Made by a program: the position numbers and the translations under genes
The notes under the pieces: model-generated
What the model was told of the DNA's origin: nothing
Database searches by the model: none
What the model saw: only the letters and a program-made list of their open reading frames with translations
Shown: positions 24,596 through 28,105 of the stretch, in pieces
How the letters are laid out: the number at the start of each line of letters is the position of its first letter
Position numbering within the stretch: position 1 is the stretch's first letter
Source of the DNA: Halorussus sp. MSC15.2
GTDB lineage: Archaea; Halobacteriota; Halobacteria; Halobacteriales; Haladaptataceae
Assembly: GCF_010747475.1 (NCBI RefSeq)
Contig: NZ_VSLZ01000001.1
Span: 744,001 to 808,000 of the forward strand
Direction of reading: 5' to 3'
DNA: 64,000 nt

Positions 24596-25243
24596 ATGAC
24601 CGCCGTCCCGCGCCGCCAAGTGGCAGGGCTCGCCCTCCTCGCCGTCGTCGCGGCCGCGAGCGTCCTCGCCGGACCGGAGTACCTTCTGGCAACCGCCCGA
24701 CGACTCGCCGACCGACCGCTCCGTTTCGGCGTCCTGCTCGTCGGCGTCTACCTCGTCCGACCGCTGTTCGCGTGGCCGACCACGCTCGTCGCCGTCCTCG
24801 CGGGGTACGCCTACGGTCCCGTCGTCGGCTTCCCCGTCGCGCTCGCCGGGACGACCGCGAGCGCGCTCGTGCCGTTTCTCGTCGCGCGCTATCTCGGCGC
24901 GGGGTCGGGGCTGGTCGCGCGCCTCGGCGACTCCGGCGAGCGGTTCTTCGCCGCGACGGGCGACCTGCGCGGGATGGTCGCCTCTCGACTCGCGCCCGCG
25001 CCCTCCGACCCCGTCTCCGCCGCGGCGGGTCTCTCCGGCGTCTCCACGGGTGCGTTCGTCGCCGGGACGGCCGTCGGCGAGGTTCCGTGGACCGTCGCGG
25101 CCGTGCTCGCGGGGAGTTCGCTCGACGGACTCTCGACCACCGGCCTGTCCGCGGTCAGTTGGGAACTCGTCGCCGCGGCGGCCGCGGTGGCGGTCGCGCT
25201 GCTCGCCGGTCCGGCCTACCGCGCCGCGAGCGCCCGCCGGTAG
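24596..25243 (+). CDS. TVP38/TMEM64 (VTT domain) membrane protein
   Basis: This protein of 215 residues starts at ATG 24596. It has a first helix of LALLAVVAAASVLAGPEYLL, then the VTT core: RPLFAWPTTLVAVLAGYAYGPVVGFPVALAGTTASALVPFLVARYLG. A re-entrant region follows (SRLAPAPSDPVSAAAGLSGVSTGAFVAGTAVGEVPWTVAAVLAGSS), matching the DedA/TVP38 pattern of Pro- and Gly-rich hairpins. About five to six membrane helices are expected. Family members act in lipid scrambling or transport; the substrate here is unknown. Confidence 0.85.
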   Translation: MTAVPRRQVAGLALLAVVAAASVLAGPEYLLATARRLADRPLRFGVLLVGVYLVRPLFAWPTTLVAVLAGYAYGPVVGFPVALAGTTASALVPFLVARYLGAGSGLVARLGDSGERFFAATGDLRGMVASRLAPAPSDPVSAAAGLSGVSTGAFVAGTAVGEVPWTVAAVLAGSSLDGLSTTGLSAVSWELVAAAAAVAVALLAGPAYRAASARR

Positions 25244-25375
25244 TTCGGCCGCGACCGGCGGGCCGTTACCGCCGACGAATTCGGAACGAAATTGGAACGG
25301 AGTCGGAACGGACTCCGAACGAAGCGGGTGAGAGTCCGAAAAACTCCTTTTAGGGTGGCTCTCGCCGGTAGAACC

Positions 25376-25915
25376 ATGCGATTCGTAACTCCAGTTACGC
25401 TGGCGCTGGTCGTGCTGACAGTCTTCGCCGCACCGATTGCGGCCCAAGAGACGGTGGCCGAGTGCGGCCCGACGACCAACGACGGGATGATGGCCAACGA
25501 GACGATGGGTGAGACGACCGAAATGATGGAGAACGAGATGACTGAGACGATGGGCGGCGATTCGACGAACGACTCGACGGGCGAAACGACCGAATCGATG
25601 GACGGGACGTCGAACGAGAGCACCACGGAGTCCATGGCCGGTTCGATGAACGACACCACGACCGGGACGATGGACGACTCGACGAGCGAGACGACCGCCT
25701 GTTCGGACGAGTCGATGGGAGGCGATTCGATGGCGGACGACACCACAGAGATGGGCGACTCCATGGCCGACGATACCACAGAGATGGACGACTCGATGAA
25801 CGACACGACCGGCGCGCCCAAGAGCGGGTCGAGCGCGTTCGCGCCCGGGTTCGGAATCGGAGCGGCAATCGCCGCACTGGCGGCGGCGTTGTACGTCGCA
25901 CGGGGGCGACCGTGA
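25376..25915 (+). CDS. Methionine-rich secreted protein with PGF-CTERM-like anchor
   Basis: This protein of 179 residues starts at ATG 25376, with a TATA-like cctttta about 25-30 bases upstream, so leaderless. Residues 1 to about 24 are a signal peptide (LALVVLTVFAAPIAAQE). The next 105 or so residues are very unusual: almost only Thr, Ser, Asp, Glu, Gly, Asn and Met, with 17 Met, often in short units such as DDTTEM, DSMADD or TESM. Two Cys are present. The C-terminus has FAPGFGIG followed by a hydrophobic helix and basic end, a PGF-CTERM-type signal for archaeosortase anchoring. The stop overlaps the start of the molybdoenzyme gene (GTGA), so the two products are coupled. A role as a sacrificial oxidant target or metal binder at the cell surface is inferred, not shown. 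Confidence 0.8.
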   Translation: MRFVTPVTLALVVLTVFAAPIAAQETVAECGPTTNDGMMANETMGETTEMMENEMTETMGGDSTNDSTGETTESMDGTSNESTTESMAGSMNDTTTGTMDDSTSETTACSDESMGGDSMADDTTEMGDSMADDTTEMDDSMNDTTGAPKSGSSAFAPGFGIGAAIAALAAALYVARGRP

Positions 25916-27489
25916 CTGACGCACCCGGCGAGTCGGCGGACCGCTCGGACCCGTCTGTCGGGGGCGGTGACCGCCGTACCCTGCTCGAATCGGCCGTCGT
26001 CGCCGCCTCGGCGGGCGTCGCGGCCGTCGCCGGGTCGTACGCCGTCGCGGGTCTTACGCCCGCGTTCGTCGCCGCGCCGGTGAGCGACCTCGTGGTCGCC
26101 TCGACGCCCGACGCGGTAATCGCGTGGTCCATCCAGACCCTCGGCGACCTCGGGAGCCAACTCGGATTCCTGTTGGCGCTCGCGCTCACGGTGGCACTGT
26201 TCGCCCTGACGAGCGCGCTCGGAATCGCGCTCGCCGCCCAGTTCGAGGTCCCGGCGTCGCCGGTCGTCGCCGTGGCTGGCGTCGCCGCGGCGCTGGCGCT
26301 CACGGGGTCGGCCGCCTCCACGCTCGCCGCGGGCGCGAGCGCGGGTATCGTCGCGGGTCTGGCGTCGGTCGGCGGTGGCGCGGACGACGCGGGTTCGCCC
26401 GCACCGGGAACGGCCCGGCGGCGCGTCCTTCAGGCCGTCGCAGGTGCGTTCGCGGTCGGCGGGGCGGGTGCGGTCCTCGGGTCCGGCCGAGGCGACGAGA
26501 TTCCGACCCCGGACGACGGGTCGGTCTCGGCCGACGTGGAGTCGCTCCTCGGCGAGGCCGAGGGGCGGTCTCTCGACGTGGAGGGCATCGAACCGCTCGT
26601 CAGCGAGCAGTTCTATCAGGTGGACATCAACAACGTGGACCCCACGGTGGACCGCGAGGACTGGACACTGGCCGTGACCGGCGCAGTTGAGGAGGACGTG
26701 GAGTTCGGCTACGACGAAATCGCGGGGATGTCGGAGTCGGTCGAACACCGCTTCGTCACCCTGCGGTGCGTCGGGGAGGGACTGAACGGCAAGAAGATGG
26801 ACACCGCGCTCTGGACCGGCGTGCCGGTGACAGACCTGCTCGACGCGGCCGGTATCGACGCCTCGGGAAACTGCTGTGTCATGCTCCGGGCCGCCGACGA
26901 CTACTTCGAGGAGTTCCCGCTGTCGGCCCTCCAGAACGGCTTCTTGGCCTTCGAGATGAACGGCCGGAGACTCCCCCGCAGTCACGGCTACCCCGTGCGG
27001 GCGCTGATTCCGGGCCACTGGGGCGAGATAAACGTCAAGTGGCTCACCGAAATCGAGGTGCTGGAACGGGAGGCGAAGGGCTACTGGGAGAAGCGCGGGT
27101 GGCACGGCACCGGCCCGGTCAACACCGTCGCCAAACTCCACGCCGTCAACCACCTCGACGGGGGCGAGATTCAGGTCGGCGGACACGCCTACGCGGGCAC
27201 GCGAGGAATCCGGAAGGTCGAGGTCTCGACGGACGGCGGAGCGTCGTGGAGCGAGGCGACCCTCTCGGACCCGCTCCCCGCAGGCACCGGCGAGGCGGGT
27301 TCGGCGAGCGGACGGGCGGAGTCGGCCGAGGACGCGTGGCGACAGTGGGAGTACACTTACGAGGCCACGGCCCCGCACGAGGTGGTCGTGCGCGCGACCG
27401 ACGGCGAGGGGACCCTGCAACCGAGCGAGGAGAGCGAGGCGTTCCCCAGCGGTCCGACCGGATGGGTCTCCAGACGCGTCGAGCCGTAA
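25912..27489 (+). CDS. Membrane-attached sulfite-oxidase-family molybdopterin oxidoreductase
   Basis: This protein of 525 residues starts at GTG 25912. Residues 20-180 hold several hydrophobic segments (four or so membrane helices), with an RR pair at each end (GDRRTLLESAVV and ARRRVLQAVAGAFAVGG). The catalytic part (about 230 onwards) is the SUOX fold: FYQVDINNVDPTVDREDW, then TLRCVGEGLNG with the Mo-ligand Cys at residue 286, RSHGYPVRALIPGHWGEINVKWL, and the C-terminal dimer domain GIRKVEVSTDGGASWSEA. The reductase or oxidase domain probably faces outside. Known relatives oxidise sulfite or reduce methionine sulfoxide (MsrP). It is coupled to the methionine-rich protein gene and followed by a regulator gene. 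Confidence 0.88.
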   Translation: MTDAPGESADRSDPSVGGGDRRTLLESAVVAASAGVAAVAGSYAVAGLTPAFVAAPVSDLVVASTPDAVIAWSIQTLGDLGSQLGFLLALALTVALFALTSALGIALAAQFEVPASPVVAVAGVAAALALTGSAASTLAAGASAGIVAGLASVGGGADDAGSPAPGTARRRVLQAVAGAFAVGGAGAVLGSGRGDEIPTPDDGSVSADVESLLGEAEGRSLDVEGIEPLVSEQFYQVDINNVDPTVDREDWTLAVTGAVEEDVEFGYDEIAGMSESVEHRFVTLRCVGEGLNGKKMDTALWTGVPVTDLLDAAGIDASGNCCVMLRAADDYFEEFPLSALQNGFLAFEMNGRRLPRSHGYPVRALIPGHWGEINVKWLTEIEVLEREAKGYWEKRGWHGTGPVNTVAKLHAVNHLDGGEIQVGGHAYAGTRGIRKVEVSTDGGASWSEATLSDPLPAGTGEAGSASGRAESAEDAWRQWEYTYEATAPHEVVVRATDGEGTLQPSEESEAFPSGPTGWVSRRVEP

Positions 27490-27526
27490 GTATAAGGGCC
27501 GTGACTGATAACCGAGGGACAGCGCG

Positions 27527-27802
27527 ATGGACAAGGCGCTCTGGTACCTGCTCACGGCGACGCGCGGCGGGGAGAACCGCGCGCGCATCATCCGCGCGCT
27601 CTCGGAGCGCCCACGCAACGCCAACCAACTCGCGGAGGTTCTGGACGTGCGGTACAAGACGGTCCGCCACCACCTCGATATGCTGGAAGACCACGACGTG
27701 GTCGACCCCGGCGACAACGAGTACGGGAAACTCTACTTCCTCACCGACCAGTTCGAGCAGCACCGCGAAGCCTTCGAGGAGATTATGGAACACATCGAAT
27801 GA
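27527..27802 (+). CDS. ArsR-type winged-helix regulator
   Basis: This protein of 91 residues starts at ATG 27527. RARIIRALSERPRNANQLAEVLDVRYKTVRHHLDMLEDHDVV is a clear winged helix-turn-helix; the rest is a short wing and tail helix (TDQFEQHREAFEEIMEHIE). It follows the molybdoenzyme gene by 37 bases and precedes a small membrane protein gene by 15. It is a likely local regulator of the redox cluster, though no ligand-binding Cys cluster is visible, so the signal is unknown. Confidence 0.85.
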   Translation: MDKALWYLLTATRGGENRARIIRALSERPRNANQLAEVLDVRYKTVRHHLDMLEDHDVVDPGDNEYGKLYFLTDQFEQHREAFEEIMEHIE

Positions 27803-27817
27803 CACGGAGACGATAAC

Positions 27818-28105
27818 ATGAGTACGATACAGTTTGCCAGCGGAATCGCGGTCGTGAACATCCTCCTGCTCGGTCTGCTCACGTCCGTGTGGGTGCGCAA
27901 CTACCGGAAGTTCCGCACGTCGCTGCTGCTCGGACTGGTCGCGTTCGGGAGCGTCATGCTCGCCGAGAACGTGGTCGCCATCTACTTCTTCTTCAGCATG
28001 AAGATGCTCTACTCGGGCGACCCCACCGTCCAGCAGGCCGTACTGGTGCTTCGCGGTCTCCAGTTCGTCGCCGTCGCGTTCCTGACGTGGGTGACGATGA
28101 AGTAG
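27818..28105 (+). CDS. Small three-helix membrane protein
   Basis: This protein of 95 residues starts at ATG 27818. Hydrophobic segments are ASGIAVVNILLLGLLTSVWV, SLLLGLVAFGSVMLAENVVAIYFFF and AVLVLRGLQFVAVAFLTWVTM. No metal-binding His pair of the MsrQ/YedZ type is evident. It is probably co-transcribed with the wHTH gene upstream (gap 15 bases). The function is unknown. Confidence 0.75.
   Translation: MSTIQFASGIAVVNILLLGLLTSVWVRNYRKFRTSLLLGLVAFGSVMLAENVVAIYFFFSMKMLYSGDPTVQQAVLVLRGLQFVAVAFLTWVTMK

Follow-up and report, generated by a model that had tools for sequence, protein, structure and literature searches.

A methionine-rich secreted protein and a molybdoenzyme are encoded together

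We analyzed a window of 64,000 nucleotides from Halorussus sp. MSC15.2 (contig NZ_VSLZ01000001.1, positions 744,001 to 808,000) and focused on a four-gene operon that may encode a cell-surface methionine-redox pair. The operon encodes a methionine (Met)-rich secreted protein (P0001), a polytopic SUOX-fold molybdenum cofactor (Moco) enzyme (P0002), a winged-helix regulator (P0003) and a three-helix membrane protein (P0004). All four open reading frames (ORFs) lie on the + strand. The genome (G000) is Halorussus-like and 4.4 Mb in size, and the nearest named relative is Halorussus aquaticus (92% identity in P0002).

P0001 (25376..25915, ATG start at 25376, 179 aa) consists of a Sec-type signal peptide (25376-25447), a Met-rich low-complexity core (25448-25813, residues 25-146) and a PGF-CTERM motif (25832-25903, residues 153-176). 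The motif profile, TIGR04126, scored 26.1 bits in the genome scan, above its cut-off of 24.5, and 21.2 bits in the protein scan, below it. The protein scan gave no Pfam or NCBIfam match at cut-off for P0001. The P0001 stop overlaps the GTG start of P0002 by 4 bases (GTGA, 25912-25915). An initial annotation of this DNA had proposed a PGF-CTERM-anchored secreted protein overlapping the enzyme gene at this point, and the ORFs, the signal peptide and the genome-scan score agree with it.

P0002 (25912..27489, 525 residues) begins with membrane helices (25966..26367, residues about 19-152), placed by AlphaFold and hydropathy, that contain no His. A twin arginine, R169-R170 (26416..26421), forms a twin-arginine translocation (Tat) motif directly before the last membrane helix. 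The molybdopterin-binding domain (26641..27087) carries the Mo ligand Cys286 (26767-26769), and the Mo-co dimerisation domain (27151..27429) holds Arg431. P0003 (27527..27802), ArsR/HTH_20-like by profile match, starts 37 bases after the P0002 stop, and P0004 (27818..28105, 95 residues) follows P0003 after 15 bases. The regulator and small membrane protein were thus as close behind the enzyme as first described, and the two are conserved together.

The Met content of P0001 exceeds chance

The P0001 core contains 17 Met among 122 residues; the initial annotation had the Met count right but took the mature protein to be about 105 residues. In the 110 residues before the PGF-CTERM motif, P0001 has 15 Met compared to 0-2 in 18 other PGF-CTERM proteins of its own genome, one of which offers just 40 residues before the motif. 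The corresponding range for 29 PGF-CTERM proteins from other genomes of the family was 0-3. Met made up 7-17.5% of 19 proteins that partner homologues of the enzyme, compared to a mean of 0.7% and a maximum of 2.7% in 46 other PGF-CTERM proteins (P = 5e-11, Mann-Whitney; the partners are related, so their independence is overstated).

We also performed a census within 800 kb of the same genome, which covered 764 acidic ORFs with a minimum length of 100 aa. Just one exceeded P0001 in its densest 60-residue Met stretch (12 vs 10), and this was SRP54-like; the M domain of SRP54 is Met-rich. Both nulls reject a chance origin of the Met content. In ordinary PGF-CTERM spacers, T, S, D, E and G were abundant and M was not; Met was thus an addition to a common spacer type.

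Met residues are conserved and evenly spaced

When the Halorussus partners were aligned in pairs, 85% of aligned Met positions were conserved using BLOSUM62 and 79% using plain identity scoring. The other abundant residues reached 76% (T) and 30-64% (S, D, E, G, N and A), and Met was second only to two Cys. Met content was retained across the partners while sequence, length and repeat units changed, which is the pattern that the initial annotation had anticipated. Met gaps of 4-7 residues were in excess over random, giving an even spacing. The usual neighbors were S or G before Met and D, G, S or N after it. For bacterial MsrP, GM(O)QAEED is an efficiently reduced context and GYM(O)EEW a poorly reduced one (PMC7402097).

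The two Cys of P0001 (residues 30 and 109, window about 25463 and 25700) were conserved among the Halorussus partners and absent in other genera. They could form a disulfide loop or a metal site.

The gene pair recurs across haloarchaea and the partner is exchanged

We collected the enzyme from 80 genome loci and from 146 sampled genomes of the order; 128 of the latter had a SUOX match of some kind. A tree was built from 95 non-redundant haloarchaeal enzymes. Absence of the pair from other genomes had been named beforehand as a refuting outcome; we observed a Met-rich secreted protein directly upstream of 19/95 enzymes. Fifteen of these belong to the Haladaptataceae clade and four lie elsewhere, on three separate branches (L013; L023; L024 with L040), so that the pair occurs in four parts of the tree overall. 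The exact 4-base overlap with the enzyme gene was present in several loci, including the distant lineages L023, L024 and L040, and the genes nearly abut in others. A winged-helix gene stood behind the enzyme in 19/19 loci with a Met-rich partner compared to 27/76 others (46/95 overall).

The upstream slot can also hold proteins unrelated to P0001. In Natronomonas, Haloferax mucosum, Halogranum amylolyticum and one other genome, it encodes a Tat lipoprotein that carries a Spond_N domain, and in one genome a DUF7482 lipoprotein with several Met in its linker. The linkers, defined as the sequence after the lipobox, were surveyed in 27 lipoproteins, which came from the same loci and from the Halorussus genome itself. 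Three Spond_N partners ranked first to third in linker Met (6, 5 and 4 per 60 residues), and the others had 0-3. The fourth Spond_N partner (L102), found separately from the survey, had 9 Met in a 60-residue window.

Polytopic relatives of the enzyme on actinobacterial plasmids adjoin genes for fasciclin-domain proteins in 6/7 loci, often with genes for extracytoplasmic function (ECF) sigma and anti-sigma factors. These six loci (L135, L225, L226, L227, L228 and L229) comprise four from Streptomyces and one each from Rhodococcus and Arthrobacter; Mycobacteroides is the one locus of the seven that has no adjoining fasciclin gene. The 70 residues that follow the lipobox Cys of the fasciclin lipoproteins contain 2-6 Met, with the most (6) in Arthrobacter. 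Judged from gene order and composition, the parallel between this pairing and the haloarchaeal pair is suggestive only.

P0002 belongs to a family of dual-targeted polytopic molybdoenzymes

P0002 matched the Oxidored_molyb (8e-37) and Mo-co_dimer (PF03404; 1e-10, 42 bits, above cut-off) domains. An AlphaFold model based on a 41-sequence alignment (mean predicted local distance difference test score 86) comprised an N-terminal helical membrane part, the last helix after R169-R170, a SUOX domain and a dimerisation domain. Cys286 was invariant in 41 homologues. These results uphold the earlier description of a membrane-attached SUOX-fold enzyme with Cys286 as Mo ligand. R169-R170 was invariant in the same 41 homologues, and the motif was also listed for 76.

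This architecture identifies P0002 as a member of the known Sec/Tat dual-targeted polytopic Moco family of the Sco3746 type. In the passages concerned of the paper on that family, Tat-dependent export and five membrane helices of Sco3746 were shown by reporter fusions in E. coli, a Haloprofundus marisrubri member is listed, and conserved His residues of the helices are proposed to bind two haems (PMC5449189); these passages do not state partner genes or a substrate. Like Sco3746, P0002 has N-terminal membrane helices, a twin arginine at the same position before the last one, and a SUOX domain outside. Unlike Sco3746, the haloarchaeal members lack the conserved helix His and with it the proposed haem b ligands. 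Residues 1-200 of P0002 contain no His, and the best His column in this region across homologues was 7/41, which makes a haem-borne electron supply in haloarchaea unlikely. We also observed no His before the twin arginine in the Mycobacteroides protein (L230) and one, near the N-terminus, in the Arthrobacter protein (L229). Haloarchaea, and apparently some actinobacteria, thus lack the helix His, and the haem proposal may not apply family-wide.

Elsewhere in the same genome (G000:C6:177993-178262) lies a SUOX fragment that is degenerate and contains an internal TAG codon; it is perhaps a decayed paralogue.

The active site of P0002 differs from those of sulfite oxidases and MsrP

We aligned the P0002 active site with two annotated sulfite oxidases, E. 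coli MsrP and one Streptomyces homologue. For the chicken enzyme we use R138, R190, R450 and Tyr322, which we take to be the reference numbering of the structures. The sulfite oxidase RNH motif is replaced by Val237-Asp238 in P0002, with V237 at the R138 position. Leu291 replaces the Arg (R190 equivalent) that lies five residues past the Mo ligand, and the catalytic Tyr322 position is occupied by an invariant Trp397. The loop after the Mo ligand is at least a dozen residues shorter than in sulfite oxidases. Arg431, which aligns with Arg450 of chicken sulfite oxidase, is retained and invariant.

P0002 scored 100 bits with the curated SorA profile (cut-off 600) and 44.8 bits with the MsrP profile NF003767 (cut-off 207), and it also missed the SorT (570) and SoxC (420) cut-offs by far. 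P0002 therefore represents a SUOX subfamily of its own, in which most of the sulfite site has been lost. P0002 shares the SUOX and dimerisation domains, the Mo-ligand Cys and one of three substrate Arg (R431) with SorA, SorT and the plant and animal sulfite oxidases. It differs from them in that RNH, CxGNxR and the catalytic Tyr are replaced, a haem or cytochrome partner is absent, and identity is about 25%. As judged from these residues, P0002 is not a canonical sulfite oxidase.

P0002 is, by its domains and its genomic setting, not an MsrP orthologue either. It shares with E. coli MsrP the Mo-ligand Cys, an FY...DP...W region before the domain (hhalign probability 97.6) and a short Arg-free loop after the Mo ligand. 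The E. coli protein is a soluble Tat protein, has no dimerisation domain and uses MsrQ; P0002 has membrane helices and a dimerisation domain, and the genome encodes no MsrQ relative. It does encode one MsrA (186-residue frame) and one MsrB (151-residue frame), both of which are ordinary in length and are taken as cytosolic.

Upstream DNA and neighboring genes

When the upstream DNA from 15 loci was aligned, a putative operator and promoter (25280..25352, + strand) emerged. TTGGAAC/TCGGAAC repeats at a spacing of about 11 bases were conserved in the 15 loci together with a GAGAGTTCGAAAAA box; the window has a GAGAGTCCGAAAAA box at 25330-25343. Boxes of the GGAGTTCG type before the enzyme-first operons of other haloarchaea resemble it by eye. 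The box RGAGTYCGNNNAA alone was not significant, with 1 match vs 0.89 expected in the window, so the operator claim rests on the cross-genome alignment. A TATA-like TTTTA (25348-25352) lies about 26 bases before the P0001 ATG, which implies a leaderless transcript, as expected for haloarchaea. From this arrangement, the repeats and the box are possibly the operator of the winged-helix protein.

A second winged-helix and three-helix pair is encoded in the same genome at G000:C3:443 kb (L207:3685-5772), behind a Tat lipoprotein with Ferritin_2 domains. Given this second copy, the two proteins resemble a regulator module that is reused in connection with secreted proteins.

A gene for a VTT-domain (TVP38/DedA-like) membrane protein lies at 24596-25243. 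About 41/95 haloarchaeal enzyme loci have such a gene before the enzyme or before its Met-rich partner, and it therefore marks the old chromosomal place of the enzyme. We considered it as a functional part and rejected it: it is near the enzyme in many genomes yet outside the tightly spaced unit. We rejected the shadow ORFs, among them a long one of 833 aa on the minus strand (25216-27717), as GC-rich antisense frames.

Discussion

By analogy with bacterial systems, we judge the chances to be about even that this operon encodes a methionine-redox pair at the cell surface, similar to MrpX-MsrPQ in function and different in construction. MrpX-YedYZ of Azospira suillum and BcrXQP of Brucella combine a Met-rich peptide with MsrPQ, as described in the parts of the source that concern them (PMC8315932). 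The Halorussus operon resembles them in placing a small secreted Met-rich low-complexity protein beside a SUOX-fold Moco enzyme and an envelope-stress type regulator. It differs from them in several ways. The enzyme is not MsrP, is fused to membrane helices, has a dimerisation domain and is encoded without MsrQ; P0001 is anchored by PGF-CTERM; and a winged-helix protein with a three-helix membrane protein takes the place of the ECF sigma pair. MXKDX repeats of the MrpX type are absent from P0001, and most partner cores contain few K or R. The proposal of an archaeal counterpart therefore survives as a pair that may work alike; an MsrP/YedY identity of the enzyme does not.

In the proposed mechanism, P0001 would be secreted by Sec, anchored by its PGF-CTERM motif, and would display about 17 individually accessible Met on a flexible acidic stalk. 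External oxidants, such as those of the hypochlorous acid type, peroxide or light-driven brine oxidants, would convert these Met to sulfoxide and so spare other surface proteins. P0002 would be held by its N-terminal membrane helices, with the folded Moco domain moved outside by Tat, and would reduce the methionine sulfoxides of P0001 back, as is modeled on MrpX/BcrX and MsrPQ. The winged-helix and three-helix proteins may sense envelope stress and control the operon via the upstream repeats. We infer methionine sulfoxide as the substrate, the direction of the reaction and the regulation from these parallels. The electron donor could, as a guess, be a surface blue-copper protein, or the quinol pool via some partner.

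Several observations weigh against a methionine-redox pair. The closest solved structures by fold and profile are sulfite dehydrogenases (SorA E 1.7e-21; MsrP 2e-9), and the curated profiles likewise score higher for SorA than for MsrP. No PF01794 (Ferric_reduct/MsrQ type) protein was found in the genome by a search in which an E. coli control gave a match; with the conserved helix His also absent, an electron route for a reductase is missing. No recognised secreted partner occupies the adjacent upstream slot of 71/95 enzymes, which means that the enzyme must also serve other clients or perform another task. Within the Haladaptataceae, four enzymes (L005, L009, L012 and L093) stand directly after the VTT-domain gene, and the Met-rich gene there was lost or never present.

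Another possibility is that P0001 is a sacrificial or shielding stalk that guards the enzyme and is not regenerated, with P0002 acting on a small molecule such as a sulfoxide, an N-oxide or a chlorate- or sulfite-like compound. The many homologues without a Met-rich neighbor and the sulfite dehydrogenase-like fold would suit such a stalk. The overlap and co-conservation with the enzyme have nevertheless been kept, and the unrelated Spond_N partners also have Met-rich linkers. We consider this explanation unlikely.

Binding of soft metals (Cu(I) or Ag(I)) by P0001 at the surface, with the molybdoenzyme as a neighbor in a general envelope-stress operon, appears more doubtful still. Met-rich secreted proteins can bind Cu(I), the Halorussus partners conserve two Cys, and in E. 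coli the repair of methionine sulfoxide is linked to copper stress through CusF, according to the relevant part of PMC9302797. Against this, His is almost absent (0-1 per 120-residue partner core, the cores including some leader sequence), and the partner cores contain 0 MxM vs 39 expected from shuffles and 9 MxxM vs 34 expected. The operon has no copper gene, and the partners of Haladaptatus, L013 and L024 lack the Cys pair. A paper on silver stress does not describe a Met-rich surface protein (PMC10694973). On the evidence of composition and spacing, the pattern suits separately exposed, flexible Met in a polar context better than Cu(I) chelation, and copper, initially named as the main alternative, is weakened.

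It is also improbable, to a slightly greater degree, that P0002 is an ordinary extracytoplasmic sulfite oxidase beside which the Met-rich gene is incidental. SorA is both its best named profile and its best fold, and the invariant Arg431 remains at the Arg450 position. However, the scores fall far below the SorA, SorT and SoxC cut-offs, the V237, L291 and W397 substitutions and the shorter loop after the Mo ligand alter the site, and the operon has no gene for a cytochrome c subunit. Least probable of all is a neutral low-complexity spacer expanded by repeat slippage: tandem units (for example, TDDSM in L013) and variable length fit it, but in other PGF-CTERM spacers of these genomes it is T, S, D, E and G that are expanded and not M, and Met is the best-conserved abundant residue and evenly spaced.

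Beyond the methionine-redox pair itself, the exchange of partners raises the tentative idea, in which we place clearly less confidence, of a prokaryote-wide extracytoplasmic Met redox system. A constant Sec/Tat polytopic Moco enzyme would be combined with interchangeable, flexible, secreted Met-bearing partners: a Met-rich PGF-CTERM protein or a Spond_N or DUF7482 lipoprotein in haloarchaea, and a fasciclin protein in actinobacteria. Its electron supply in archaea would be haem-free.

Haloarchaea live under intense light and in concentrated halide, and their surface proteins should be oxidised. In the literature that we found, no extracytoplasmic repair system is described for haloarchaea, and our literature search yielded nothing usable on the hypochlorite response of haloarchaeal SUOX genes. 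The initial annotation knew of no described archaeal system of this kind. This held in the literature searched, except that the enzyme family, haloarchaeal members included, has already been described in the part of PMC5449189 that concerns it. According to a 2018 review of archaeal Msr enzymes, few archaea have MSRP, and the sulfite-oxidase-family enzymes of archaea, although widespread, are not known to reduce methionine sulfoxide (PMC6211008). The proposal that one of them may do so, made by analogy, would therefore be new. The operon offers a concrete candidate enzyme, substrate and regulator for haloarchaeal surface repair. It also suggests possible targets of Sco3746-type enzymes, for which the assembly in the membrane has been established, namely the Met-bearing secreted partners encoded beside them. 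If the partner-swapping system is real, it would be, within the literature searched, the first archaeal system described for the extracytoplasmic repair of methionine sulfoxide.

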